Virus record (IMG/VR): IMGVR_UViG_3300048839_000018
Span: 1-20,803 of that record
Source: a virus
Strand: one strand, 5' to 3'
DNA: 20,803 nt
The notes beneath the pieces are model-generated. The model was given only the letters and a program-made list of their open reading frames with translations, made no database searches and had not been told where the DNA came from. Positions 1-20,497 of the stretch are shown in pieces; the stretch's first letter is position 1, and each line of letters opens with the position of its first letter. Position numbers and translations under genes: made by a program.

Positions 1-2069
1 ACCTGTGTGACACCAACGTAGAAGGATACGAGACTTTTGAGCAATCAGTCAGATACGCAACACTCGACGGGCTTCTGCCCGGACGCGGTATCACGTCTAT
101 TAAATACGACGCGGACATTCTGGAAACAGGAGAAGAAGGATCAGTTCCGGTAGTCAATTGGGAGCAAGTCTGCACGGAGACACGCGGATGGGACAGGGTG
201 TATTTCGGCTACGCGAAGAAGTGGTCGAAAGTGCCTTGGATTGCCTACGAGGAATTCATCGACAAGGAGGAAGCAGAACGCTTGTTTGGCGCTGATATTG
301 CCGGGAAGATCACCTACACGCTTGGAGAGGATGACGATGACCCGGAAGAAAAAGGAACCGGAACTGGCGGTAGAGACGACGCCGACAACGAGCAGGGAGG
401 ACGCAAAACAGCACTCGTCTACCAGATTTGGGACAAGTCAGGCGGCAAGGTGGTGCGTTATATCTCACCGGCATACAACGACGGTTATCTCAAGGTCGAG
501 GACGATCCACTAGGCATCACCGGGTTCTACAACTGCCCGCGCCCGCTGCAATTCATCGAGAAGTCAAACGACCTGCTTCCTACGGCGATGTATAAGCTGT
601 ACGAGAACCAGGCCAAGGAACTGAACAACCTCACGCGGCGCTTGCAAAAAGTCGTAAGCGCGTTGAAGGTGCGCGGAGCGTATGACGGCTCCCTCGGCAA
701 TGAGATCGAATCCATCCTAAAGGAAGACGACAACGCGCTGATTCCGACCGACAAAGCATCGTCGCTGATTGGCGAAGGTGGTTTGGACAAGGCCATCTGG
801 TTCATGCCGTTGCAGGAGTTGATGCAGGTTGCCGAGAAGCTGGTAGCCGCCCGCGAGCAATGCAAGCGCGTCATCTACGAGATCACAGGTGTATCCGACA
901 TCATTCGCGGCCAGTCGGTTGCAAGCGAGACGCTTGGAGCGCAGAAGATCAAAGAGTCGTGGGGAACCATGCGGCTCAAGCGGTTGCAGAAGGAAGTGCA
1001 ACGCTACTCCCGCGACATGCTCCGCATCATGCTGGAGATCGCCGCCAGCAAGTTCTCTGTTGAGACATGGGCCAAGGCTACTGGACTGCCGTTCGTAACC
1101 GCACAACAGAAGGCTCAAGCACAGCAGATCGTCCAAGCGCAGCAAATACAAGCGCAGCAGCAAGCCATGATGGCACAGCAGCAAGGTATGCAACCGCCGC
1201 CGCCACAGCCGCCCGATCCGCAGATTCAACAAGCATTAGCAGCGCCAGTATGGGATGACGTTCTCGCGTTGCTGCGTGACGACATTCAACGCGCCTATCG
1301 CATCGACATCGAGACGAACAGCACGGTCGACGTGGAAGCCACAGAGGATCAGAAACAGATTGGCGACTTCATGAACGCAATGGGCCAGTTGCTTGCCGGT
1401 CTGAATCCGATGGTCGAGTCAGGAACTATGCCGTTCGATGGGGCCAAGGAACTGATGCTTGCTGTCATCCGCCGCTTCCGATTCGGTACGGAAGTAGAGG
1501 AACAGTTCAAGAACATGCAGGCCCCGCAAGGCAAGGGCAATCCTGAAGCGGACAAGATGAAGGCAGAAATGGCTCAGTCTCAGATGGACGCCAAGATGCA
1601 GATGGCCGAGGCGCAGCAGAAAGCGAAGATGGATCAACAGGCACTTCAAGCTGAAATGCAGCAGAAGGTCATGGAGTTCAAGGCTGAAATGCAGCTTGAA
1701 ATGGCGAAGCTGCAAGCAGAGAAAGAGGCAGAGAAGCAACAGTTGATTGCCGACCTTGCTGCGGAAAAAGAAAAGCTTATGATGGAGCAGCGCATTGAGC
1801 AGATGAAGGCGAACACGCAGCGCGATACCGAGTTGAAGAAAGCTGCGATGGCTGGTGCAGTGCAGATCGAGATAGCCAAGATCGGCGCACAGGCTCAAGC
1901 CGCAACCGCATCGCAGGAATCAGAACGCGAAGGCGCTGAGAAGGAAGGAAGCGATCAGATGATGGCGGCTGTACTTGAGACGCAGGCGAAACTGCTTGCG
2001 ACGCTGGCTGCGCCGAAGGTTGGCACGTTATCGAACGGGAAGCAGATCAGGATAGAGACGCAGGTATGA
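1..2069 (+). CDS. Portal protein, 5'-truncated by the window edge
   Basis: Partial gene: the frame is open from base 3, so the true start lies upstream, and the first in-window GTG (198) is internal. Portal proteins form the dodecameric ring at one capsid vertex through which DNA is packaged and ejected. The visible part has a mixed alpha/beta body up to about nt 1080. A Gln-rich stretch and a Pro run (nt 1105-1220) follow. A very long Met/Gln/Lys/Glu-rich predicted coiled coil then spans nt 1540-1900. This layout, ending in a Q/K-rich helical tail, is common in podovirus portals of the BPP-1/Bcep22 type. Its place upstream of scaffold and capsid genes fits. The family call rests on recalled similarity and gene order. 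The stop overlaps an ATG in ATGA form (2066-2069). Confidence 0.82.
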   Translation, partial: LCDTNVEGYETFEQSVRYATLDGLLPGRGITSIKYDADILETGEEGSVPVVNWEQVCTETRGWDRVYFGYAKKWSKVPWIAYEEFIDKEEAERLFGADIAGKITYTLGEDDDDPEEKGTGTGGRDDADNEQGGRKTALVYQIWDKSGGKVVRYISPAYNDGYLKVEDDPLGITGFYNCPRPLQFIEKSNDLLPTAMYKLYENQAKELNNLTRRLQKVVSALKVRGAYDGSLGNEIESILKEDDNALIPTDKASSLIGEGGLDKAIWFMPLQELMQVAEKLVAAREQCKRVIYEITGVSDIIRGQSVASETLGAQKIKESWGTMRLKRLQKEVQRYSRDMLRIMLEIAASKFSVETWAKATGLPFVTAQQKAQAQQIVQAQQIQAQQQAMMAQQQGMQPPPPQPPDPQIQQALAAPVWDDVLALLRDDIQRAYRIDIETNSTVDVEATEDQKQIGDFMNAMGQLLAGLNPMVESGTMPFDGAKELMLAVIRRFRFGTEVEEQFKNMQAPQGKGNPEADKMKAEMAQSQMDAKMQMAEAQQKAKMDQQALQAEMQQKVMEFKAEMQLEMAKLQAEKEAEKQQLIADLAAEKEKLMMEQRIEQMKANTQRDTELKKAAMAGAVQIEIAKIGAQAQAATASQESEREGAEKEGSDQMMAAVLETQAKLLATLAAPKVGTLSNGKQIRIETQV

Positions 2070-2101
2070 CCACCCTCCGCACCCACTACGAGCCGCACTA
2101 A
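2066..2101 (+). CDS. 11-codon mini-ORF bridging portal and the next gene
   Basis: An ATG overlaps the portal stop as ATGA and opens an 11-residue frame (MTTLRTHYEPH) that ends TAA directly against the ATG at 2102. It has no evident function. It could be the remaining start of an older gene displaced when the large GC-rich gene arrived, or a re-initiation bridge, because the gene at 2102 has no visible Shine-Dalgarno sequence. It may also be chance. Confidence 0.25.
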   Translation: MTTLRTHYEPH

Positions 2102-5100
2102 ATGGCCACAATCACCACCGCCGTCTATCTGGAGGACGCTGCCCGGACGGCGGGCGAAGCCATGACCATCAACGGTGGCTCGCTCACCGTTCGCTCTGAC
2201 ACCCGTTGGCACGCCAACAGTCCTGCCTCAATGACCGGCTCGCTCGGCGCTGTGACGATCTCCAGCACGCTCGGCGGCAGCTACGTCATCGACGGGAGGA
2301 ACGTGCGCTGGCTGGCCTACGACACAGGCACCGGCAACGTCCCTGCGGTGGGAACCACGATCACGGGCGACACATCGGGGGCCAACGGCTACCTGCTCGG
2401 CGTGTGGGCCAGCCTGACTTCCGCACCAACCGCAGTTGGCGCTGCAATGCCAGCCACCGGCTTCCTCAAGCTGCGTGAGGCCGACGCGACCTATCAGGCG
2501 GAAACCCTGACCGGCATCGGGGCCAGCTCGACGGGTGCTGACGTTGTCGGCTGGATCGAAGTAGTCCATGACCAGGCCATCGCCATCACCGTCCCGCGCC
2601 TTGGCGACTTCACCGTGCGCGGCGACTGGTTCGACCTCGGCACGACCTCAGGCGCGGCGAACCAACTTGTGCAGATTCCGACCAACGGCAGCGCAACCGC
2701 GTATGTGCCGGGGGTGTGGATTGCCAACACGGCGACGCCGACCACGGACGACGATTACGACTTCTACCCGTCGCTCTACGCGGCAGGTATGACAACGACC
2801 AACCTTGGCACGGATGAGCGCAGCAAGTTCGTCTGCATGGAGACGAACGGCAATATCCGCATCGGCCACAACGGCACGACCTCTGTCGGGCATGTTCCGG
2901 CATCCGGTAGGGCGATCAGGATACCGAACGTGCTCGGTCGGCAATGTGCAACCGGCACGCGGGCGACGAACGCCATCCCGAACGCCACGGCAGCAACCCG
3001 CCCCGACTTCACCACCACGTCGGCAGGCTACATCGACATCGAGAACTTTTCGACGGACTGGTATCTACTGTTTGCGCAGCCGTACTACGTCAAGCTGTGG
3101 CACGTCGGCACGTTCGATTACATCAACGTCAGCGAGTGCGCGACGGCGCTTGACATTTACGACGGCGGCAGCGGCACCAGCCAGTCGATTGACGCGAGAA
3201 CGCTCACATTCACATCGAATTTCGCGGGCGGCACTGTGGAGAAGTGGGCGGGGCAGCGTTTCTCGGCAGGCACCACCGACCACGCCTTCGAGATTCTGTA
3301 CTCGAAGGACATCAGCTTCACGAACTGCGATTCCGGCATCATCACCTTCGCCCGCTCGACGGGCATGGCCTACCAGATCACGCAGTCGGACAACATCAAC
3401 TTTACCAACTGCCGGCAGTACAACCAAGCGATCAAATTCACCACCAGCGCCAACTGCGCGGTTACGAATCACGACCACTGCGACCGGTACGTTGGCACCA
3501 CCAACACCACCGGCATCTACGCTGCCTATGTGCTGGCGACCTCGGACGCCATCGTGTTCGACGGCTTCACCTTCGGCCTCGGCGGCACGATTGCCGACGT
3601 GCACCCGTACTTGGGCATTTTCAACTTCGGGCAGAGCAAAAACTGCAAGTTCAGGAATATCGGTTCGCGCACCACGGCGATCTCTGGCGGCAGCGCGAAC
3701 AACCCGGCTTACATCGCGCTGTCGGCTGGCAATAACCAGAACATGCGGTTCCAGCGCATCTACATGACGCCGACGCGCACGGGCGCGATCAGCACGACGA
3801 ACTCGGACAAAGGCAACCTGTACGAGCACGTCTATGGCGACATGGGCGATACCATGACCATTGCCGACCTGAATACAAAGACCAAGAACTGCGGCGGCAC
3901 GAACACGACGACAGGACAGGCGTCGGTGTACGGCACGCACTTCTGGGACGTATTCACCAGCGACACGGCGGGGCGCATCGTCCTGAGCATGAACGAGCCG
4001 ACCGCCGAGACGGTGGCGTATTACACCGTTGTTGCCGGCGCGCCGAAATTCACCAGCGCGGGCGGACTGTCCATGCCGACGCTGAATGATGAAGTGATTC
4101 TTGAGCAGGATTATTTCGTCAAGGGCTGCACGGGCTTGCCGAACACCGCGCCGGTCGTGACGGGAACGAACGTTACCTACGTGTCCGGACCGGATTGGGG
4201 CAATCACGACATCTATTTCCAGATCGACGTGAATGACGGAAGCGGCTGGAGCGGTACGTGGCTCGACCTGACCGGCGCGAACCTGAACAGCTTCAATGCC
4301 AGCATCGACCCGGACTTGGGCTTCAAGCTGAAGTATCGCATCGTCTGCGACAACGCAGCGACGACGAACCTTATCTCGTACATTCGCATCAGCACCACAA
4401 GCACGCTGGTGGCGCAGACGGATAACCTGTACGACCTCGACCAATACACACTGACGCTGACTGGTCTGCAAACAGGGACAAAGGTGGCTTTCCTCGACGC
4501 CGGAACGGAAACGCTGCGGACTGCTGTGGTGGCCGAGAGCGGCGGATCGGTGAGCTACACCTACCCCGACACGGACGTTTCGGACAGCATTGACATTGCC
4601 ATCCTCGCGCCGGGATACCTTTATCAGCGCATCACCAGCTACACGCTGACCGCCGCCGCCGCCAGCGTCCCGGTGACGCAAGTTGTGGATTACGGTTACG
4701 ACTCCGGCGCGTCGGCCACCTGCACATTCAACGGCGCTACCAAGCGGGTCATCATGGACGCCGCCAGTAGCGTGCTGAACGTGGTGGGCATGTATTCGGA
4801 TTGGGTGGATTGGGCGCTGACGGGCAGCAATCTGGCCTACAACGCCCTGTGCGATGAAGTTGGCGGCAACACCATCGACGCGGGGGCGGGAACGTCCATC
4901 CCGATCTACGTGTTCCTTGCGAACTCATGGCGCATCGCCCCGGACGAAGCCGACCACACCCTGGCCGTCACGACCGGAATTGTGCTTGTCTCAGGTGGTG
5001 GCGATCCGTTTGTCGATACGGCAGGCGCATACACGGTGCGGATCAACTATCAGCAGCCGGTGCAGGCCATCACGGTATCCACGGGCGGCGGTGGCGGCGC

Positions 5101-5458
5101 TTCGGCGGCGGACGTATGGTCTTACGCAACCCGTGCGTTGACAGCCGGGGGAGTTAGCGCGATTCAGTCCGGGCTGGCGACCAGCGCCGAGGTGGCGGTA
5201 ATCCCGACCAACCCGCTGCTGACGAACGATGCGCGGCTGGATAACCTCGACGCGGCGGTCAGCAGCAGGTTGGCGACGGCTGGATATACCGCGCCGGATA
5301 ATGCCACCGTCGCACTGATCGCCGGATACACCGACAGCATAGAGAGCCGGCTCCCTGCCGCGCTGGTGGGTGGCCGGATGGATGCCAACGTGGGGGCCGT
5401 GAATGGCCTTGTCGTGGATGGAGCAGGAACCGAAGCCGATCCGTGGGGGCCTGCCTGA
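2102..5458 (+). CDS. Large beta-helix-like virion structural protein (possible tail or receptor-binding component)
   Basis: 1118 residues, rich in Thr, Gly, Asn and Ala with few Lys, as in extracellular phage proteins. Residues 1-200 form a small-residue beta region containing a Gly-Asp-Trp-Phe-Asp motif near 174. Residues about 300-600 carry rungs of the type S-x-D/N-I-x-F-T-N-C (near 401, 429 and 512), suggesting a right-handed parallel beta-helix. The last 250 residues resemble the C-terminal modules seen in many large phage structural proteins: a W-R-I-x-P-D-E-A-D-H motif, then a glycine hinge, a V-W-S-Y-A-T-R segment and a final acidic G-T-E-A-D-P-W. It is visibly richer in G+C than the portal gene, lies between portal and head genes where a tail gene is unusual, and lacks a clear ribosome site. 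A tail-tip or spike role is inferred, and no enzyme active site was recognised. Confidence 0.6.
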   Translation: MATITTAVYLEDAARTAGEAMTINGGSLTVRSDTRWHANSPASMTGSLGAVTISSTLGGSYVIDGRNVRWLAYDTGTGNVPAVGTTITGDTSGANGYLLGVWASLTSAPTAVGAAMPATGFLKLREADATYQAETLTGIGASSTGADVVGWIEVVHDQAIAITVPRLGDFTVRGDWFDLGTTSGAANQLVQIPTNGSATAYVPGVWIANTATPTTDDDYDFYPSLYAAGMTTTNLGTDERSKFVCMETNGNIRIGHNGTTSVGHVPASGRAIRIPNVLGRQCATGTRATNAIPNATAATRPDFTTTSAGYIDIENFSTDWYLLFAQPYYVKLWHVGTFDYINVSECATALDIYDGGSGTSQSIDARTLTFTSNFAGGTVEKWAGQRFSAGTTDHAFEILYSKDISFTNCDSGIITFARSTGMAYQITQSDNINFTNCRQYNQAIKFTTSANCAVTNHDHCDRYVGTTNTTGIYAAYVLATSDAIVFDGFTFGLGGTIADVHPYLGIFNFGQSKNCKFRNIGSRTTAISGGSANNPAYIALSAGNNQNMRFQRIYMTPTRTGAISTTNSDKGNLYEHVYGDMGDTMTIADLNTKTKNCGGTNTTTGQASVYGTHFWDVFTSDTAGRIVLSMNEPTAETVAYYTVVAGAPKFTSAGGLSMPTLNDEVILEQDYFVKGCTGLPNTAPVVTGTNVTYVSGPDWGNHDIYFQIDVNDGSGWSGTWLDLTGANLNSFNASIDPDLGFKLKYRIVCDNAATTNLISYIRISTTSTLVAQTDNLYDLDQYTLTLTGLQTGTKVAFLDAGTETLRTAVVAESGGSVSYTYPDTDVSDSIDIAILAPGYLYQRITSYTLTAAAASVPVTQVVDYGYDSGASATCTFNGATKRVIMDAASSVLNVVGMYSDWVDWALTGSNLAYNALCDEVGGNTIDAGAGTSIPIYVFLANSWRIAPDEADHTLAVTTGIVLVSGGGDPFVDTAGAYTVRINYQQPVQAITVSTGGGGGASAADVWSYATRALTAGGVSAIQSGLATSAEVAVIPTNPLLTNDARLDNLDAAVSSRLATAGYTAPDNATVALIAGYTDSIESRLPAALVGGRMDANVGAVNGLVVDGAGTEADPWGPA

Positions 5459-5862
5459 TGGCTTCCGCATGGGGAAAGAGTTGGGCCTCTGCGTGGGGGA
5501 ATTCATGGGGCGTAATACAAGCTGCGGCTGAAGAAATCCTTGCCGGAGCAGGATACCCGATAAGGATACACAAGCAGAAACCGCACGTTCGCATTGACGA
5601 CATTGTTGAACGCACGATGCGCGAGTTGTACGAAGGCATCACAGCAACTGCACCGCAGCAAGTCAAGAAGCAAGCCGCGAAGATCGTCAGGCCGCATATC
5701 GTCGCTGGCGTCAAACCGGCAACGATACCACCAGCCAGCATCATTGATTGGGCCGCATTGGAGCGTGACGCGGCAAGGGTATCTGCACTGCTGGCACTCT
5801 GGCAGGAGCAGATGGAGTCGTTGGAAGACGAGGAAATGCTGCTGATGTTGATGGCGGCGTAA
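5458..5862 (+). CDS. Small Trp-rich phage protein of unknown function
   Basis: 134 residues. The ATG at 5458 overlaps the preceding TGA (TGATG), which favours it over the in-frame GTG at 5443. The N-terminus repeats an A/S-W-G-x-S-W pattern (four Trp in the first 17 residues), a feature I recall from small phage virion-module proteins. The rest is helical and charged, ending in an acidic Met/Leu-rich tail. It is probably translated by coupling to the large gene before it. No function can be assigned. A minor virion or assembly factor is plausible from location only. Confidence 0.6.
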   Translation: MASAWGKSWASAWGNSWGVIQAAAEEILAGAGYPIRIHKQKPHVRIDDIVERTMRELYEGITATAPQQVKKQAAKIVRPHIVAGVKPATIPPASIIDWAALERDAARVSALLALWQEQMESLEDEEMLLMLMAA

Positions 5863-5872
5863 GGAAAGAACC

Positions 5873-6286
5873 ATGCCTGTATATGAACACCTGTGCGAGA
5901 AAGGCCATAAGTTCGACCGCTACCTGAAGCTGGCCGAACTAGACCATCCGCAGACATGCGAATGCGGCGGTGCGGCAAAGCGGATAATCTCGCCCGTCAT
6001 GTTCAGCATTGATGCCACCAACTTTCCAGCCTACCAGTCTCCAACGACAGGGCGATGGATCACGTCAAAGACGCAGCGGAGAGAGGATATGAAAGCATCT
6101 AACTGCGTGGATTACGAGCCTAGTCTCAAGGACGAGCAGACCAAGCGGATCGCCAGAGAGGACGCAGAGCTTGAGAAGAAAGTGGATGAACACGTTGAAA
6201 AGACGATTTACGAGATGCCAGCGCCAAAAAGAGAGAAATTGGCCGCAGAAGTTGAGCATCTTGACATTGCCGTAACAAGGGCTTAG
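5873..6286 (+). CDS. FmdB-type zinc-ribbon protein, degenerate ribbon
   Basis: 137 residues with a purine-rich ribosome site (AAGGAAAG) just upstream. The N-terminus begins M-P-V-Y-E-H-L-C, the signature opening of FmdB-family small zinc ribbons, with a later C-E-C-G-G turn. Instead of two CxxC pairs it has C8 with H12, then C29 and C31, so the metal site is altered or lost. The C-terminal half (about 75-137) is a charged helix, possibly a coiled coil. Such zinc ribbons commonly lie between portal and scaffold genes in podoviruses of this group. Their role is unknown, though assembly or regulation has been guessed. The family call rests on the N-terminal motif. Confidence 0.68.
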   Translation: MPVYEHLCEKGHKFDRYLKLAELDHPQTCECGGAAKRIISPVMFSIDATNFPAYQSPTTGRWITSKTQRREDMKASNCVDYEPSLKDEQTKRIAREDAELEKKVDEHVEKTIYEMPAPKREKLAAEVEHLDIAVTRA

Positions 6287-6320
6287 TCTAAGTAAGCACT
6301 AACTAACTTTAGGAGGAAGC

Positions 6321-7376
6321 ATGTCAGACGAAGCAGCGGTTGCCGACAGCAGCCAAGATACCAGCGATCAAGGCGGATTTGATATAGATCAAGCGTCAAA
6401 CGACTTGGCCGGCGACCTGTTTCCTGCTTCCGAAAGAGAGGCGTCCGACGATGCAGAAGATGCGGGTACTAATGCAATCACGGAACCTGCTGATACTGAG
6501 CAGGCAACTGAGCCGCCTAAAGATGGCGCTTCCGCAGACGATGCGGCCAAGGCCGCGATTGAAGGAAAGCCAGCCCCAAAGACATGGCCAAAGGAAATGC
6601 ACGAACATTGGGGCAAAACCCCCAAGGAAGTGCAGGACTATTGGGAAGTCCGCGAGAAGCAAATGCTTGACGGACTCGAACAGTACAAAGGTGATGCTGT
6701 ATATGGGAAGGCAATGCGGGATGCCGTTACGCCTTATATGGCGCTTATACAAGCGCAGGGCATTGATGCGCCGAGAGCGGTACAGACCCTCCTGAACGCG
6801 CATTACAAGCTGTCCGTATCACCGCCATCACAGAAGGCGCAATACCTAGATTACATCGCCAAGCAGTACGGTATCGACCAAAGTTTGCGCCAACCGTCGC
6901 AAGGTGGGCAGCAAATCGCCGATCCGCGTTTGGCACAACTGCAAGACGAATTGCATCAACTGAAGCAGGTTATCCACTACGGCAGCGAACAACAACTCAA
7001 CGCCGAGCGTACACGCATCAGTCAGGAAGTGAATACCTTTGCGTCTGATCCGGCGCATCCATATTTCGACGAAGTGGCCGACGACATAATTGTGATGCTC
7101 AAGGCCGGTTTGCCGTTGCAGGATGCTTATGATCGGGCGGTATGGGCAAATCCCGGCACTCGCGCCAAGGAAACCGCAAGGCTTCAGACAGAAGCCAAAG
7201 CGGAAGCCGACAAAAAGGCGAGAGAGCAGGCAGAAGCAGCAAAGAAGGCAGCATCAACGAATATCCGCAATCGTGACACCCGTAGGACTCCTACAGAGCA
7301 GCCGAAAGGAACGATGAGGGACTTGGATGGCGCAATGAAAGAAGCAATGCGCGAAATCAAAGCACGTACTCATTAA
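6321..7376 (+). CDS. Capsid scaffolding protein
   Basis: 351 residues preceded by a strong AGGAGG (6311-6316). The first 90 residues are acidic and rich in Asp, Ala and Ser, as expected of a disordered scaffold N-terminus. A conserved segment follows around 88-125, with W-P-K-E-M-H-E-H-W-G and V-Q-D-Y-W motifs that I recall from podovirus scaffolds. The middle is helical and Gln-rich. The end is a Lys/Arg-rich helix (about 290-351), the type of tail scaffolds use to bind coat protein. It lies directly before the major capsid gene, as scaffolds usually do. Scaffolds guide procapsid assembly and leave before or during DNA packaging. Function is inferred from composition, motif and order. Confidence 0.8.
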   Translation: MSDEAAVADSSQDTSDQGGFDIDQASNDLAGDLFPASEREASDDAEDAGTNAITEPADTEQATEPPKDGASADDAAKAAIEGKPAPKTWPKEMHEHWGKTPKEVQDYWEVREKQMLDGLEQYKGDAVYGKAMRDAVTPYMALIQAQGIDAPRAVQTLLNAHYKLSVSPPSQKAQYLDYIAKQYGIDQSLRQPSQGGQQIADPRLAQLQDELHQLKQVIHYGSEQQLNAERTRISQEVNTFASDPAHPYFDEVADDIIVMLKAGLPLQDAYDRAVWANPGTRAKETARLQTEAKAEADKKAREQAEAAKKAASTNIRNRDTRRTPTEQPKGTMRDLDGAMKEAMREIKARTH

Positions 7377-7394
7377 CTCTGAAAGGAGCCAATT

Positions 7395-7593
7395 ATGGCC
7401 TCGCCTAACAGCACTTTTACGGAACTGGTCACTTCGACCTTCCGTAAGGTTCGGAAGGATGTCAAAGACAACCTTTCCAACCGCAACGCCCTGCTCAAGC
7501 ACATCTACAAGCGCGGGAACTACCGTACCGAAGATGGCGGACTGACTATCGTTTGCCCGCTTGATTACACGACCAACAGCACTTACCAACGGT
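7395..7593 (+). CDS. Major capsid protein, exon 1 (join 7395..7593, 8499..9262)
   Basis: First 66 codons plus one base of the major coat protein, after a good ribosome site (AAAGGAG, 7382-7388). Unspliced, the frame reaches a stop at 7614-7616 and gives only a 73-residue peptide. The sequence up to T-Y-Q-R is typical of the BPP-1/Bcep22-like coat family, in which I recall T-Y-Q-R-Y-S followed by a D-x-L-N motif. Joining base 7593 (T) to 8499 creates a TAT codon and yields T-Y-Q-R-Y-S-D-W-D-L-L-N-I, restoring that motif in frame. The spliced coding length is 963 nt, or 320 residues, right for such coat proteins. The coat protein builds the icosahedral shell on the scaffold encoded just upstream. 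Confidence 0.86.
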
Positions 7594-7600
7594 TGACCTT

Positions 7601-7613
7601 GGCGTTTTGCGCC
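7601..7613 (+). other. Small hairpin near the intron 5' end
   Basis: GGCG, a 5-nt loop (TTTTG), then CGCC. It lies between the 5' splice site and the proposed guide sequence, so it may extend P1 or form a P2-like element. Read from the other strand it sits at the 3' end of the HNH gene but has no U-tract, so it is a poor terminator. Confidence 0.4.
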
Positions 7614-8236
7614 TAACTAGCCGCTTTGGATGCCAACATAGAAATGTAGTAAGGGCGATCAACGTAAGCCATTTTCCATAGATTGCACTTACGACATAGG
7701 GTTTGAGAGTTTTCTTTGATGTTAATGCCACCAGCAACGATAGGAATGATGTGATCCAACTCAAGACCATCGGTAGTTTCACACCAAGCGCAACAGGCTG
7801 CTTTCCAGTTCGCCTTTTGCCAGGGAGTGAATTCTCGCCTATGTCTTGGGCTATCACTAAGCTTCGGCTTCGTGAGTGCGGCGATCATCTTGTCACGGTG
7901 AAGAAGCCAGCGGGTTTTGAGTGCGGCAGAAATAGCCGCCCTATGCTCAAGACTGGGCTTCCATCCAGCGGGCGGGCCGGGTCGTTTCGGTCTAGCCAAG
8001 TTGCTATTGGTAACAGCGTCTCTGTTCTCTTGCGTAGGGATTCGTCCCCAAGCCGGATTGTTTTCGCCGCTAAAAGCCTTGCTCTTGCACTCGGATTTAC
8101 CGCAAGTCTTGGTTATGCCGCGAGCTATAAAACTAGCCTTCCGGTAGAATTCAGCACCGCAAATAATGCAGTTGAAGTTAGCTCCATTTTTGCGATACGG
8201 CCTAGCACCAATGCCGCTGTCTTTGCGCTTCCCCAT
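7613..8236 (-). CDS. HNH homing endonuclease, antisense within the group I intron
   Basis: 207 residues on the strand opposite to the capsid gene. The ATG at 8236 is chosen because GGAGG lies 4 nt upstream; an in-frame TTG at 8305 lacks this. Residues 23-50 form a Cys4 zinc-finger-like unit (C23, C26, C45, C50). Residues about 90-110 (P-A-G-W-K-P-S-L-E-H-R, then A-I-S-A-A-L-K) resemble the NUMOD3 DNA-binding motif of homing nucleases. Residues 149-188 form an HNH domain with C149xxC152, D161-H162, N176 and C181xxC184-N185. Such enzymes cut intron-less alleles so that the intron is copied in. It cannot be read from the sense structural transcript and needs an antisense promoter. A candidate lies just upstream. 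Confidence 0.88.
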   Translation of the reverse strand: MGKRKDSGIGARPYRKNGANFNCIICGAEFYRKASFIARGITKTCGKSECKSKAFSGENNPAWGRIPTQENRDAVTNSNLARPKRPGPPAGWKPSLEHRAAISAALKTRWLLHRDKMIAALTKPKLSDSPRHRREFTPWQKANWKAACCAWCETTDGLELDHIIPIVAGGINIKENSQTLCRKCNLWKMAYVDRPYYISMLASKAAS

Positions 8237-8288
8237 ATTGCCTCCATTGAAAAACCGGGTGAATTCGGTGGAACACTTAATGTTATCA

Positions 8289-8317
8289 ACGATACACTGT
8301 CCCAAACATTAAGTCAA
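8289..8317 (-). promoter_or_regulatory. Candidate sigma70 promoter for the antisense HNH gene
   Basis: On the minus strand, TTGACT (8317-8312; 5 of 6 matches to TTGACA) is followed by exactly 17 bp and TATCGT (8294-8289; 4 of 6 to TATAAT). Transcription would start near 8282, about 45 nt before the HNH ATG. The promoter lies within the intron's P5 stem-loop, so the same bases serve ribozyme structure on one strand and possibly transcription on the other. Predicted only. Confidence 0.5.
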
Positions 8318-8498
8318 TACCGAGCCAAGCCGTTTGCGAAAGCAGCGGAAGGTGTAACGACTAACGCATGGAGCCTAACCCGCGAAAGCGGCATGGCGGT
8401 AAAGCGACACGAGCCCCCGGCCCGCAAGGGAAGATATAGTCTGGACTATGGGGTGACCCATAGAAGTGCGGATAAAGAGCCGCACGATAACATTTTCG

Positions 8499-9262
8499 AT
8501 AGTGACTGGGACTTGCTGAATATCCAGCAATCCGACGTTATCAGCGCCGCAGAGTACCAATGGCGGCAGATTGCGGTCAACGTGGTTGCTTCCGGTCGTG
8601 AGCAGCGCATCAATAGCGGCGAATCCCGTATTTTCTCGCTGGCGAAGGCCAAGATGAAGAACGCGATTCGCACCTTCAACAACTCGTTCTCGTCCGATCT
8701 GTATAGCGACGGCACAGCGACCAACCAGATCAACGGTCTGCAAGCCCTTGTGGCCGACGCTGGCACCGGCACCGTGGGTGGCATCAACTCGTCCTCGTTC
8801 TCGTTCTGGCAAAACACGATCTTTGACTGTTCGGCCAACACGGTAACTTCGAGCGCGACGACCATCGAGAATAGCATGATGCTTCCGCTGTGGCTGAACC
8901 TTGATCGTGGCCCGGATGACCAGCCTGACCTGATTGTGATGGACAACACGTACTACAAGTACTTCGAGGCTTCGCAGACTTCCATCAAGCGTTATATGGA
9001 TGCCAGCAACGCCAACGGCGGGCTTGTCTCGCTGAAGTACAAGAACGCTGATGTCTATTTCGACGGCAATAGTGGCATTCCGTCCTCGCACGCTTACTTC
9101 CTCAACACCAACTATATCGAGCTTGTGGTTCACCGCGATGCAGATATGGAAGTGCTGGAAGATCAGCGCCCGATCAACCAAGATGGCTCGGTGATCCCGA
9201 TCCTGTGGATGGGGAATTTGACATTATCCAATAGAAAAATGCAAGGAGTTATTGTCGAGTGA
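8499..9262 (+). CDS. Major capsid protein, exon 2
   Basis: Continues the coat protein from the split Tyr67 codon to TGA at 9260-9262 (254 codons including the stop, plus two bases of the split codon). It carries the family's conserved core: W-D-L-L-N-I, E-Y-x-W-R-Q, a G-R-E-x-R-I-N-S-G segment and D-L-Y-S-D-G-T. The C-terminus I-P-I-L-W-x-G-N-L-T-x-S-N-R looks like a complete family ending. The same frame is open upstream through the intron to 7703, by chance. That would tempt a gene caller to report a false 519-residue protein with an intron-derived N-terminus. Codons from about 9214 onward (TTG, TTA, AGA, AAA, GTT, ATT) are AT-rich. Earlier exon 2 has only CGN for Arg and no TTA. Confidence 0.86.
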
Positions 9263-9278
9263 TGACAGTGAGTTACGC

Positions 9279-9309
9279 TTGACTTCTATGGGCATTGTGG
9301 CATTATATA
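9279..9309 (+). promoter_or_regulatory. Weak promoter-like sequence before the second endonuclease-like gene
   Basis: TTGACT (9279-9284) is followed after 19 bp by TATATA (9304-9309) in the short AT-rich gap between the capsid stop and the next ATG. The spacing is long for sigma70. The same TTGACT hexamer lies before the antisense HNH gene. Low confidence. Confidence 0.3.
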
Positions 9310-9333
9310 AGCTCCTTAACATTGGAGCCAAAC

Positions 9334-9996
9334 ATGAAGCCACGAGGACTAACTGTAATTGATCGTGTAGGGCAGAGAATTGGGAGGTTGATTGTGATTG
9401 AGAGAGTGGCCAATAGGATCGAAGGAAGCTCTGTTCGGGCCAATTGGTTGTGCCAATGCGATTGCGGTAATACTATTATCGTATCTGGGCATTCTTTAGG
9501 GAAAGCCTTGAATGGTAATGGTGGAACAAGATCGTGCGGATGCTTGATGAAAGAAAAGCCAATCAAGCATGGCATGTATGCGTCAAGGATTTATGGGTTA
9601 TGGGCCTCAATGATTCAGCGTTGCACTAATCCAAAAAATCCTGCATATCACAGTTATGGCGGTAGAGGAATTACAGTCTGTGACAGATGGATGATCTTCG
9701 AGAATTTCTATACTGACATGGGCGATAAACCGCCAAAGCTGACTCTTGATAGAATCGACAACTCAAAAGGATATTCAAAGGAAAATTGCCGTTGGGCAAC
9801 AAGGCATGAGCAAGGGAATAACCGAAGAACTAATACGATTATTTCCTTCAATGGCAAAAAGCAAACTCTGTCACAATGGTCTAAAGAAACCAATCTAAGC
9901 CCTATGTGTATTATGGGCAGATTGCGCAGTGGTTGGCCTATAGATAAGGCGTTGACATATCCAAAATTTGCGACCTTAATCAAGGAAAGGAACTAA
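9334..9996 (+). CDS. Putative free-standing homing-endonuclease-like protein (zinc ribbon, HNH-like, C-terminal HTH)
   Basis: 220 residues. The ATG at 9334 follows TTGGAG by 7 nt and is preferred over a TTG at 9295. The N-terminus has the G-Q-R-I-G-R-L-I-V motif, then a zinc ribbon C40-x-C42-x-C44-G with C68-G-C70. The middle has Y-G-G-R-G-I-T-V-C near 108-116 and L-D-R-I-D-N, then N-C-R-W-A-T and N-N-R-R near 147-175, a set typical of a common phage family often labelled HNH endonuclease. In place of a clear catalytic His there is Arg before I-D-N, so activity is unproven. The C-terminus (about 176-212), with S-F-N-G-K-K-Q-T-L-S-Q-W and G-W-P-I-D-K-A-L, looks like the helix-turn-helix that ends many intron-type nucleases. 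The gene is AT-rich unlike its neighbours, and its last codons include the ribosome site of the next gene. Confidence 0.75.
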   Translation: MKPRGLTVIDRVGQRIGRLIVIERVANRIEGSSVRANWLCQCDCGNTIIVSGHSLGKALNGNGGTRSCGCLMKEKPIKHGMYASRIYGLWASMIQRCTNPKNPAYHSYGGRGITVCDRWMIFENFYTDMGDKPPKLTLDRIDNSKGYSKENCRWATRHEQGNNRRTNTIISFNGKKQTLSQWSKETNLSPMCIMGRLRSGWPIDKALTYPKFATLIKERN

Positions 9997-9998
9997 TC

Positions 9999-10472
9999 AT
10001 GTCTTATATCGCAGGTATGAAGCTGGATGCTGTTCGTACGAGCAGCGAAGGCCCGGAGTTCAAACTTGGCACTGTTGGCCGGACTAGCGACGGCAAGCAG
10101 TACAAGTATGTTCAGTTCAACAACGGGGCTGGCGACGTTGCTTCTGTCGCTGGCAATTTTGCGTACTACTACGCTGTTTCAGGAACTTCCGCTGGTCAAA
10201 TCGACATCGTTACGATGGACGTGACCGACAGCGGCGGCGTTGGTGCTGGCGTGTTTCAGGCTGTTATCCCTGATGGCGGCTACGGCTGGATTCAGACAAA
10301 AGGGCCTGCTACACTGACCACCGCGCTGACTGCGGGTGCTGATGGTAATGCACTTACCGCCATCGGAACCACGGATGGCACGTTGGACGTTAGCGCACTG
10401 GTTACTGACTTCATCTGCGCGGTGGCGATTGATGCCTCTGCTAAGATTGTCATGCTGACCTGTCCTGACTAA
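9999..10472 (+). CDS. Probable capsid decoration/cement or minor head protein
   Basis: 157 residues, ATG two bases after the preceding stop. The ribosome site (AAGGAAAGG, 9982-9990) lies inside the end of the endonuclease-like gene. The protein is small, rich in Gly, Ala, Thr and Val, has no evident signal or membrane segment, and looks all-beta with a Gly/Ala-rich second half. It opens M-S-Y-I-A-G-M-K-L. A beta-rich protein of about 16 kDa right after the coat gene and before a terminator fits a decoration protein such as those stabilising BPP-1-like heads. That role is inferred from position and composition, and I cannot name a specific family. It is the last gene before the terminator. Confidence 0.6.
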   Translation: MSYIAGMKLDAVRTSSEGPEFKLGTVGRTSDGKQYKYVQFNNGAGDVASVAGNFAYYYAVSGTSAGQIDIVTMDVTDSGGVGAGVFQAVIPDGGYGWIQTKGPATLTTALTAGADGNALTAIGTTDGTLDVSALVTDFICAVAIDASAKIVMLTCPD

Positions 10473-10478
10473 GCAATA

Positions 10479-11500: not shown

Positions 11501-12391
11501 ATGGCGAACGAGTCTTTACGCGCAAACGTAGCGCAGGAAGTCGCAAGGCGGCGCGTAACGGATGAATTGATGCCGAGACAGTCTCGGTTGAATGAGATGT
11601 ATGGCCCGCCGGACATTCCGATTCCCTCAGAGGTAACGCCGTATCAGACATTCCAGCAGCCAACCGACGCCGTACAAGGATTCTTCGATCCCGGCACCGG
11701 CACCGCGCCAGACTCGGTTGATGGAGTAAGCGCCGCAAGTAACTCCCCGGCGGTATCGAACGGCACCCAGGGCTTCGCTGCGGCGTTGGGCGAGGCTGTG
11801 AGCGCGTTGGGGCCAGCGATGGCAGCGCCTTTCGCTTCTCTGGCTGCTATCGGGATGGCCGTGGCAAACATGGACGCACCGGATAATTCTTCTGCTGTTG
11901 ATGCCGGAGCCGCTGGTTCCGCAGATGCAAGCGCCGGAGTGGGTGATTCTTCTGCAACCGCAGTAGATGGGGTAAGCGCCGCCGATGCCGCCGCTATGGG
12001 TGATGCTGCCGCTGCCGAGGGTGCTGCGGCCACGTCTTCTGATGGCGGCGCTGGCGGCGGTGCGGGCGGGTCAAAGATCGTCTGTACAGCCATGAACCAA
12101 GCCTACGGTTTTGGAGCGTATCGTCAAGCGATCTGGCTTGACTACTCCGCAAAACGCCTTACAAAGCAACACGAACGCGGCTATCACCGCATCTTTCGGC
12201 CTTTGGTGCGATACGCTTTCCATTCAGGAAACAGTCTTGCAAAGCGCAATGTTCGCCAATTCCTTGAATACATCATGCGGTTACGTACTGCCGATCTAAG
12301 GGCTGAAATGCGCGGAAAAAATCCGCACCCGGTTAGGCGCGTTATTCGCCGCACCTGTGAATACATTTGCTATCTTGCGGGGAAACCATGA
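11501..12391 (+). CDS. Ala/Gly-rich phage protein with conserved C-terminal domain
   Basis: 296 residues, ATG one base after the previous stop. Residues 1-60 are polar, with a proline-rich P-P-D-I-P-I-P segment. Residues 85-190 are a low-complexity Ala/Gly/Ser/Asp stretch with a D-G-V-S-A-A repeat (about 74 and 156) and one hydrophobic segment near 92-123. The last about 105 residues (from S-K-I-V-C-T-A-M-N) are basic and well structured, with A-Y-G-F-G, W-L-x-Y and R-T-A-D-L-R-A-E-M-R-G motifs. I recall this conserved domain from many phage genomes, where it closes otherwise variable proteins. The layout suggests a flexible arm carrying a fixed binding domain. Function is not established. 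It ends in ATGA overlap with the next gene. Confidence 0.62.
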   Translation: MANESLRANVAQEVARRRVTDELMPRQSRLNEMYGPPDIPIPSEVTPYQTFQQPTDAVQGFFDPGTGTAPDSVDGVSAASNSPAVSNGTQGFAAALGEAVSALGPAMAAPFASLAAIGMAVANMDAPDNSSAVDAGAAGSADASAGVGDSSATAVDGVSAADAAAMGDAAAAEGAAATSSDGGAGGGAGGSKIVCTAMNQAYGFGAYRQAIWLDYSAKRLTKQHERGYHRIFRPLVRYAFHSGNSLAKRNVRQFLEYIMRLRTADLRAEMRGKNPHPVRRVIRRTCEYICYLAGKP

Positions 12392-15176: not shown

Positions 15177-16202
15177 ATGTGTTACGACGCCCCCGATCCA
15201 CCTGACTACGGCGCAGCAGCAACAGCACAAGGCGCTGCGAACGTAGAATCCGCAGTTGCCGGTTCCCGCCTAAACAACCCGAATGTAATCAATCCTTACG
15301 GCTCTCAGACGTGGGTTGAGGGGGCTACAGACACGTCTCGCCCGACGATGGTTCAGGAGCTTAGCCCTGAGCAGCAGGCGTTGTACGATAAATCGGTTCA
15401 AACAAAATCCATTCTTGGCGATTTAGGCATCCAAGGCTCTCAGGCCCTTGGGGATGTCATCGGGCAAAATCTTGATCTTTCGGGATTACCAGCAGCGCCA
15501 GGGGATGCTGCGGCAACAAGGGATCAGGTTATCAATGCAATGATGAGTCGCGTCAATGAAGACGTTGACCGCTCAATCGACCAAAGGAATTCCGATCTAA
15601 TAGCAGCCGGTATCCGCCCAGGAACAGAAGCATACGATAACGCAATGGCTCAGATTGAGCGCGGAAGGACGGATGCGCGTCAGCAAGCCATCATCGCATC
15701 TGGCAGTGAGGCCCAAAGAGACTACCAGATGGATGCAGATCGTCGCCGTACTGCATTGTCTGAGCTTCTTGCTGGTCGCCAGACACCGCTAAACGAGATC
15801 AACGCGCTCATGTCGGGATCGCAGGTTAGCAACCCGTTCGCTGTGCCGAATGCGGCACAGAACACGCAGGTTGCGCCAGCACCTATATTTGGTGCTGCAC
15901 AAGCTCAAGGCGCGGCGGATTTGGGAGCCTACAACGCGCAACAGGCTGGCATGGGTAATGCAATGAGCGGGCTGTTCGGGCTTGGCAGTGCTGCAATGAG
16001 ATTTTCAGATAGACGATTGAAACGCAATATCCGGCGCATCGGCACGCATCGCATCGGGATCGGCCTGTACGAATTCGACTACATTTGGGGCGAGCATTCG
16101 CATGGCGTCATGGCCGACGAGGTTATGGCGGTGATGCCTGCCGCTGTGTCCATGCATGACGGATATGCGGCTGTAGATTACGGGATGATAGATCATGGAT
16201 GA
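15177..16202 (+). CDS. Virion protein with C-terminal S74-type intramolecular-chaperone-like domain
   Basis: 341 residues. The N-terminus M-C-Y-D-A-P-D-P-P-D-Y is Pro/Asp-rich and a Cys at position 2 is present. Residues about 60-210 are Gln/Ala/Asp-rich and helical. From residue 277 there is S-D-R-R-L-K-R-N-I, the Ser and Lys arrangement of peptidase S74 / endosialidase-type chaperone domains, followed by G-L-Y-E-F-D-Y, G-V-M-A-D-E-V, and A-V-D-Y-G-M-I at the end. In tail spikes this domain trimerises and cuts itself off; here it is short. The protein precedes two ejection-type genes and is likely a minor tail or internal virion protein. Translation may be controlled by the leader hairpin. 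It overlaps the next gene by 8 nt. Confidence 0.7.
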   Translation: MCYDAPDPPDYGAAATAQGAANVESAVAGSRLNNPNVINPYGSQTWVEGATDTSRPTMVQELSPEQQALYDKSVQTKSILGDLGIQGSQALGDVIGQNLDLSGLPAAPGDAAATRDQVINAMMSRVNEDVDRSIDQRNSDLIAAGIRPGTEAYDNAMAQIERGRTDARQQAIIASGSEAQRDYQMDADRRRTALSELLAGRQTPLNEINALMSGSQVSNPFAVPNAAQNTQVAPAPIFGAAQAQGAADLGAYNAQQAGMGNAMSGLFGLGSAAMRFSDRRLKRNIRRIGTHRIGIGLYEFDYIWGEHSHGVMADEVMAVMPAAVSMHDGYAAVDYGMIDHG

Positions 16203-19360: not shown

Positions 19361-20497
19361 ATGGCATTCAACGGTTCCGGTCTTTTTGTTATCGACAGCA
19401 CAGGGCAACCAGTCAGCGCGAACACGCTGATTGAGTCTGCCGATTTCAACGCGCTTACCGCCGATCTGGCGGCTGGCTTGTCCAACTGCATAACGAAGGA
19501 CGGCCAACAGACTATTACAGCAAACCTGCCAATGGCGACGTATCGCCATACCGGAGTCGGCAATGCTGTAGCACGCACCGACTACGCTGCGGCTGGACAG
19601 GTGCAGGACGGCAAGCTGAATTGGGTTGATGGTGGTGGCACGGCTGATGCGATCACGGCGACGTACTCGCCATCCATTACCGCTCTGGTAGATGGGCAAC
19701 TGTGCTGCGTGCGTGCAACTGCGGCCAATGCGACGACTACGCCGACATTCTCTCCGAACGGATTGACTGCGCGAACAATCGTCAAGAAGGGCGGCTCTGC
19801 CCTAGTTGTCGGGGATATTGTTGGCGACGGGCACGAATTGCAGCTTCGCTACGATCTGACGAATACGCGGTGGGAATTGCTGAATCCTGGCGCGTATGCC
19901 GCATCAGGAGCCGCTACCGCCTCCGGCCTGACAATGGCAACCTCCCGCCTATTGGGAAGGACTACTGCTAGTACCGGGGCGATAGAGGAAGTGACGGTAG
20001 GCAATGGGTTGAGTCTGACCGGTACAAATCTTGCCGTTAGCGGTGGAGTTGTCCAACGAGTCGAGGCAACACCCTTCACAACCTATTCGAGCGACTCCTC
20101 CGGGTCTTTGCCGATAGACGACACGATACCGCAGAAAACAGAAGGTAATGCGTACGTCTCTGTATCTATAACGCCGAAGTCGTCTACCAACCGGCTAGTC
20201 ATTAAAGGCATTGCACATATCGGCGGAAATGGCGCAGACACGGTCTGCGTGACGCTAGTCGACACCGCAATCAACGACTGCCTTGCTGCTGTGGTAACGA
20301 CATTAGGAGGTGCCAATTATCATGCAAGCGTGCCCATTGAGCACGAACTGGAAGCCGGCTCCACAAGCGCGAGAACATACCAGCTGCGCATCGGTGCTGG
20401 GGCTGGCAAAACATTCTTCGTTAATGGCGGCACTTCCACGCGATTGTTTGGCGGGAAGATGGGTTGTCGTTTGTGGGTTGAGGAAATCGCTGTTTAA
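19361..20497 (+). CDS. Tail fibre protein
   Basis: 378 residues. A TAGGAG ribosome site overlaps the previous stop (19349-19354). The N-terminus M-A-F-N-G-S-G, then the A-x-G-L-S-N-C-I-T-K-D-G-Q-Q-T and T-A-N-L-P-M-A segments and the H-T-G-V-G-N-A-x-A-R-T-D-Y-A motif form the classic repeat of podovirus fibre proteins that anchor to the tail. The middle is beta-rich and Thr/Ala-rich with a W-E-L-L-N-P segment near 170. The last about 150 residues form a separate beta domain (from about V-V-Q-R-V-E-A-T-P-F), probably the receptor-contacting head. A fibre or collar-attachment role is well supported by the N-terminal motifs, but receptor choice cannot be predicted. Confidence 0.8.
   Translation: MAFNGSGLFVIDSTGQPVSANTLIESADFNALTADLAAGLSNCITKDGQQTITANLPMATYRHTGVGNAVARTDYAAAGQVQDGKLNWVDGGGTADAITATYSPSITALVDGQLCCVRATAANATTTPTFSPNGLTARTIVKKGGSALVVGDIVGDGHELQLRYDLTNTRWELLNPGAYAASGAATASGLTMATSRLLGRTTASTGAIEEVTVGNGLSLTGTNLAVSGGVVQRVEATPFTTYSSDSSGSLPIDDTIPQKTEGNAYVSVSITPKSSTNRLVIKGIAHIGGNGADTVCVTLVDTAINDCLAAVVTTLGGANYHASVPIEHELEAGSTSARTYQLRIGAGAGKTFFVNGGTSTRLFGGKMGCRLWVEEIAV

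Follow-up and report, generated by a model that had tools for sequence, protein, structure and literature searches.

Gene content of the locus

The window considered here is the whole of a 20,803-base stretch, IMG/VR virus record IMGVR_UViG_3300048839_000018, a phage fragment that opens inside a portal gene and carries, close behind it, the subject of this work: a gene for a protein of 1118 amino acids (aa), followed by a 134-aa gene and a zinc-ribbon gene (Table 1). A reading of the DNA letters alone (the original prediction) had proposed a large, GC-rich virion-type gene at this position, and the gene is real: the frame is free of internal stops, and its GC content is 0.623 (0.807 at third codon positions, GC3) against 0.536 for the rest of the window. 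The excess of +0.087 is the highest of 28, with 27 homologues, each compared with its own flanks, ranging from -0.067 to +0.085.

The beta-helix that had also been proposed is borne out by structure prediction. An AlphaFold2 model built on a 43-sequence alignment has a mean predicted local distance difference test (pLDDT) score of 84.5, and VIA-align matches its residues ~5-630, with Z about 15-20 and ~10% identity, to alginate epimerases, inulin fructotransferases and phage tailspikes. The nearest phage folds, on which Foldseek agrees, are the CBA120 TSP3, Sf6 and Dettilon tailspikes and phi29 gp12 (Z 16-20); against viral models, Foldseek also has gp54 of the cyanophage Syn5 among its matches (E 7e-6). 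In a second model, of residues 775-1118 (pLDDT 79.9), a domain that we call D is transthyretin/CnaB-like (Z 8-9.7 over 69-86 residues, near the level that the tool calls common), and matches to D fill the PDB fold lists for this C-terminal model; the tail, residues 1006-1118, is predicted with low confidence to be helical. Searches of Pfam and PHROGs with the whole protein and 36 D and C sequences gave nothing useful (C being the domain that follows D), and a PDB sequence-profile search gave no match.

Empty site and replaced block

Two contigs, numbered L075 and L076 among our loci, are near-isogenic with the window phage (protein identity 96% for the portal and 99% for the capsid). By blastn, window 3-1876 equals L075 1360-3233 (93.7%) and window 5871-9268 equals L075 3321-6720 (95.5%), and 3,994 bp of the window (1877-5870) oppose 87 bp (3234-3320) in L075; outside the differing stretches, the DNA shared with the two contigs is 92.6-95.5% identical. 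Given this near-isogenic empty site, 1877-5870 is an acquired block. It begins within the portal gene, exchanging its last ~63 codons, and stops two bases short of the zinc-ribbon start codon. In L075, the 87 bp contain the end of the portal gene (its final 14 codons) and then a 13-codon frame, MGCKGKKPKPPKR, unrelated to the 11-codon frame of the window. The original prediction of a cargo insertion that cut an older gene was thus right about acquired cargo, but the cutting of an older gene is not supported: the block is an allelic replacement of the 87 bp.

The two ends of the block have relatives in the same cargo-bearing locus, L077, where a related portal tail and a gene of the 134-aa type flank a different, fibre-like gene of 451 aa. 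Relatives of the 134-aa gene occupy the same place in L077 (E 7e-19; 37.5% over 104 aa), L026 (3e-13), L022 (N-terminus, 2e-9) and L086 (0.001). That the portal tail and the 134-aa gene both have L077 relatives argues against chimeric assembly and for a coherent block. A 20-mer and a 23-mer across the junctions had 0 matches in viral contigs, in a search that possibly left out the window's own record; with no second contig carrying them, the junctions rest on one contig and on the coherence argument.

A 13-14 codon frame is conserved between the portal and zinc-ribbon genes of empty-site phages (MGCKGKKPKPPKR, MGCKGKGKRPPKK, MGCKKGHGTKPPKK; L075 3277-3322, with counterparts at this position in L076, L078, L079, L083 and L088). 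Micro-frames like MGCKGKKPKPPKR occur in 9 of 58 empty loci, three of the nine being contigs fetched twice.

Table 1. Features of the portal-side region and a separate fibre-like gene (window coordinates)
Feature	Coordinates	Strand	Basis or remark
Portal gene	3..2069	+	PHROG 12082, E 7e-122; 5' end outside the window
Portal C-terminal tail allele	1877..2069	+	tail of cargo-bearing L077: 55.6% identity over 54 aa, E 2e-11
Replaced block (portal 3' end, 11-codon frame, 1118-aa gene, 134-aa gene)	1877..5870	+	blastn against L075
11-codon frame MTTLRTHYEPH	2066..2101	+	sequence; ATGA overlap with portal stop
1118-aa gene, candidate fused horn-type appendage (A::C)	2102..5458	+	open frame, homology and model
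Predicted beta-helix region, residues 27-630	2180..3991	+	AlphaFold2 model, VIA-align Z 15-20
CnaB/transthyretin-like domain D, residues 783-866	4448..4699	+	common to C-termini of Syn5 gp54 and relatives
Domain C, residues 874-1005	4721..5116	+	homologous to Syn5 gp55
Predicted helical C-terminal tail, residues 1006-1118, end ...DPWGPA	5117..5455	+	in L022, L026; not in fused relatives L009, L011
134-aa gene	5458..5862	+	SAWGxSWG start, acidic-hydrophobic end DEEMLLMLMAA; start overlaps stop of 1118-aa gene (TGATG)
Zinc-ribbon protein gene	5873..6286	+	Pfam Zn_ribbon_8, 1.7e-5, under the Pfam cut-off; conserved in L069, L075 and others; right border of block
Tail-fibre-like gene, separate	19361-20497		N-terminus PHROG 13989 'virion structural', 2e-11; 'tail-fibre-like' is our reading

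Start of translation

The portal stop TGA (2067-2069) overlaps the ATG at 2066 of the 11-codon frame, as the original prediction had it, and the TAA of that frame (2099-2101) abuts the ATG at 2102. Also as predicted, the gene lacks a clear ribosome site: no run of more than 3 nt complementary to the anti-Shine-Dalgarno (anti-SD) sequence lies upstream. The stop-to-start join makes borrowed translation by re-initiation plausible, but such coupling is ordinary. Tight stop-start spacing was seen for 19 of 30 homologous genes versus 81 of 189 other genes, a mild enrichment (Fisher p 0.048), and SD-like sites were present at 14 of the 30 versus 53% of other genes; a special re-initiation signal was rejected. 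So was the idea that the 11-codon peptide is the leftover of a longer gene, since no relative with at least 7 of 11 identities was found in the 7.5 million translated residues of the fetched loci.

Kinship with the Syn5 horn genes

Among viral contigs, a scan identified 67 relatives of the 1118-aa protein, and with L068, L070 and L071 added, 70 loci were examined. In most relatives the match is split between A, which covers residues 1-866 or just the terminal part D, and C (~874-1005), often with a further gene, B, between them. The normal form over the 70 loci is a three-gene cassette A-B-C homologous to Syn5 genes 54, 53 and 55. B matches Syn5 gp53 (37.7% over 467 aa, E 8e-88); D of the window protein matches the gp54 C-terminus (38.6% over 88 aa, E 1.5e-6); C matches gp55 (32% identity, E 3.7e-11), which a profile of the domain finds at 2e-25; and in tblastn against Syn5 the window protein gives one match spanning the gp54 end and gp55 (32%, E 4e-7). 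In Syn5, the vertex opposite the tail bears a horn (PMC10575957). Its discoverers tentatively assigned gp55 to capsid density, but no AlphaFold2 gp55 model fits that density (PMC9207676).

B is present in 54 of the 70 loci. Nine others (L009, L010, L011, L022, L025, L026, L027, L029 and L030) carry C as a fusion with a protein of A or X type, and B was not found in them; L005, L007, L018, L023, L031, L032 and L033 have neither fusion nor B, most being cut by a contig end and L005 being a lone A. With the window, B was not found in 10 of 10 fused cases (Fisher p 4e-8, for loci that are not independent and include several short contigs). In the 20.8-kb window itself, a fragment, the search for a gp53/B-type gene gave only one 25-residue chance-level match (E 0.009). 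Automatic fusion flags for L034 and L070 proved to be alignments reading over a stop, and these two were counted as separate. The fusion of horn-type A and C is a new arrangement, and we read it as a sign that A and C may act together, with B becoming dispensable.

B, a D-ending protein and C also occur together in S-TIP28 and in the podovirus Panino, and the 50,697 phage records searched hold gp53 homologues from no more than five distinct phages. Panino is a podovirus by transmission electron microscopy, and the part of its description covered (PMC11590407) does not mention a horn. No relatives were found in plasmids; among genome contigs there were three loci only, from metagenome-assembled genomes (MAGs) and without host clue. 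The cassette members scanned gave no useful PHROG or Pfam family match.

Two details of cassette architecture may be added. The gp53-like B of L034, L046, L051, L053, L054, L056 and L060 has an internal duplication of the profile region ~250-400. The A proteins of L025 (9407-13918) and L061 (8113-12045) carry several hundred extra residues between residues ~256 and 262, and that of L021 (10001-13366) has a frame break between the same residues, which suggests a tolerated insertion point in the beta-helix.

Selected neighbours, a part of the total, were scanned against PHROGs in 38 cassette loci. In 12 of these, a portal or a PHROG 332 head-tail adaptor ends no more than 1 kb before the cassette, and these upstream genes represent at least eight PHROG families: L001 (332), L003 (146), L014 and L022 (21), L015 (2271/12), L016 (12, marginal, 9e-6), L017 and L019 (156), L029 (1216), L034 (2662), L044 (145) and L064 (113). 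In L004 and L061 the cassette stands behind a capsid or head gene, and in Syn5, S-TIP28 and L038 it takes other positions within the late region.

An exchangeable interval behind the portal

With loci added by capsid-based scans, 177 were examined for the interval behind the portal, 65 of them uninformative and 112 with a portal plus a zinc-ribbon or scaffold gene. Of the latter, 108 were called automatically and four (L105, L180, L193, L220) set by hand as empty, and three contigs are counted twice (L083/L097, L079/L098, L088/L099). The portal to zinc-ribbon interval is below 350 bp in 58 loci, 350-1150 bp in 10 and at least 1150 bp in 44. Thus, the earlier claim that related phages pass straight from the portal to small head genes holds for the nearest relatives, L075 and L076, but not for the wider group, where 44 long intervals stand beside 58 short ones. 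A tree of portal cores, in which 95 of the 105 rows have a clear state, shows no fewer than 17 changes of cargo state. The cargo genes are diverse: D with C is found in only the window and L026 among the 44, and B in none of them. An acidic-hydrophobic end tag (for example, DEEILLLL) closes some interval gene in 31 of 44 cargo loci versus 59 of 1,899 other open reading frames (ORFs), in a count for which several ORFs were tried per locus and a few of the 31 are regular-expression matches in other interval genes. In the window's phage group, this portal-side interval serves as an exchangeable bay for fibre genes.

A tail like PKRIVRGPDGRAVGVE is the usual end of the portal in cargo loci. The 13 instances from cargo loci in one half of the data served to train a profile, which gave an area under the curve of 0.91 on held-out loci (23 cargo, 25 empty). 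At a threshold taken from the empties of the training half, 38 of 44 cargo loci score positive versus 3 of 58 empty ones, or 17 of 23 versus 3 of 25 among the held-out. The portal tails of the window, L026, L102, L117, L121 and L125 fall below threshold, and we judge the window's tail to be related to the cargo type only through L077. Three of the 10 loci with intervals of 350-1150 bp are positive, and two of these three (L104, L136) contain a single small gene (135-137 aa). When pairs that are phylogenetically independent are compared, 4 to 6 of them (for the most part 5 to 6) point in the same direction and 0 in the opposite one, with a median p of 0.06; hence the link between tail and cargo is suggestive, not proven. 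Post hoc, similar tails were seen to end portals of other families just before a horn-type cassette (strongly in L022, also in L014, more weakly in L044 and L029), and to end small genes abutting the cassette in L046 and L056.

Interpretation

We think it probable that the 1118-aa gene specifies an accessory appendage of the virion, one of the Syn5 horn type, and is a recently acquired cartridge in the exchangeable bay between the portal and the zinc-ribbon, scaffold and capsid genes. The block, whose borders are visible in the DNA, would have been donated through recombination by a relative with a longer portal tail and bay cargo. Ribosomes ending the portal may re-initiate twice, first at the 11-codon frame and next at the ATG that abuts it. 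The product is predicted to fold into a shaft or spike of beta-helix type borne by a CnaB-like stalk domain, followed by the gp55-type domain and helical tail; these last two, with the 134-aa protein, would anchor it at the head or portal vertex, where it could act as an extra adhesin or as a sugar-binding or sugar-cleaving fibre. In most relatives, shaft (A), gp53-like B and gp55-like C are separate genes; here, A and C form one chain and B is not seen. It is the gene context, together with the Syn5 kinship, that favours a head or portal-vertex appendage.

Several points weigh against this. The Syn5 homology spans D and C only, and the A beta-helix is not sequence-homologous to the gp54 N-terminus; B was not found in the fragment that is the window. 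The Syn5 set lies downstream of a tail fibre gene, the L038 cassette lies beside tail-fibre and internal virion genes, the best beta-helix folds are tailspikes and sugar enzymes, and one C protein has a weak PHROG 'tail fiber' match (E 0.03).

Some of the same evidence could speak for an ordinary tail fibre or tailspike, for receptor binding or as a depolymerase, merely sited among head genes: the nearest folds are the tailspikes and phi29 gp12 named above, and cassettes stand near tail fibre genes in L038 and Syn5. We think this unlikely, as the window retains a separate tail-fibre-like gene, cassettes follow portals of many families, and D and C are common to Syn5 gp54 and gp55, the latter with its contested capsid assignment (PMC9207676). 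The 'tail character' of the original prediction accordingly fits the fold, but not the sequence kinship and gene context, which point to the head or portal side. It is improbable that the gene is ancestral and was lost from L075, L076 and the other empties. Some cargo is carried by 44 of 112 informative loci and the portal tree cannot separate gain from loss, but the D and C module sits in so few of these bays, the GC excess is the largest among the homologues, and several of the nearest rows of the tree (L075/L076, L082, L079, though not L077) are empty. Like phage morons, the block is a single acquired piece of probably nonessential cargo, of odd base composition, between conserved late genes, but a typical, autonomously transcribed moron is highly improbable, given that a consensus scan of 1800-6000 (other promoter types being outside its coverage) found 0 promoter-like sites (1.2 expected) and no + strand terminator, that the 1118-aa gene overlaps or abuts its neighbours, and that the block replaces the end of the portal gene.

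A bolder extension of the horn-type reading, which we offer tentatively and hold to be doubtful, is that the portal carries an add-on C-terminal docking tag (typically PKRIVRGPDGRAVGVE), used by unrelated portal families to recruit interchangeable portal-side fibres encoded directly downstream; the window protein would be one such cartridge, and Syn5 gp55 would be a horn anchor and not an icosahedral capsid knob. In the general view, the C-termini of portals point into the capsid, which counts against docking, and shared recombination could move portal tail and cargo together.

Among known systems, Syn5 53-54-55, of which gp53 and gp54 are reported by Raytcheva and colleagues to be horn proteins, is the closest: the window's D corresponds to the gp54 C-terminus, its C to gp55 and the relatives' B to gp53, and their co-occurrence is conserved. 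Unlike in Syn5, a single polypeptide contains both the gp54-type and the gp55-type part, its beta-helix shaft is a different one, gp53 was not found in the window fragment, and the gene stands behind the portal instead of a tail fibre gene. Beta-helix tailspikes (CBA120 TSP3, 6nw9; Sf6, 2vbe; phi29 gp12, 3gq8) share the right-handed beta-helix over ~300-350 residues but only ~10% identity, and the window adds CnaB-like and gp55-type domains and a head-side gene context. Maribacter phage Panino and Virus Rctr197k likewise have B and C close to a D-ending protein, but as separate genes, with other N-terminal fibres and annotated as hypothetical.

To our knowledge, the Syn5 horn has so far been treated as a peculiarity of one cyanophage. 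Among the literature titles and abstract beginnings covered, with subscription journals mostly outside that coverage, there was no report of its homologues in other phages or of a portal-side fibre bay. The present analysis extends its three-gene set to dozens of environmental phages, whose portals belong to several families. Through the fused form, proteins of the gp55 type are linked with the appendage, which makes the contested place of Syn5 gp55 testable; a recombination system has been described for Syn5 (PMC8776855). The bay, with its cargo-associated portal tail, gives a concrete and testable idea of how phages may swap head appendages.

Other features of the window

The window also holds a capsid gene (PHROG 9953), tail genes and a scaffold-like gene named by position only. 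Besides the block, it differs from L075 at 9269-10473, with an HNH endonuclease gene (PHROG 374, 4e-71; GC 0.43) and a 157-aa gene, and at 11504-12386, with a 296-aa gene whose family was not recognised. The capsid gene is split after residue 66 by 908 bp (7593-8500); the same insert is present in L075 and L076 (98.8%), with nothing similar in any other fetched locus. Inside it lie a group I intron core (8162-8463, + strand, 49.7 bits against a gathering threshold of 50, E 2e-11) and, on the opposite strand, an HNH endonuclease frame (7613-8305). At 15177-16202 there is a PHROG 6121 virion protein, residues ~273-336 of which weakly match the ends of long tail fibre and baseplate proteins; its own end is perhaps a chaperone-like C-terminus.

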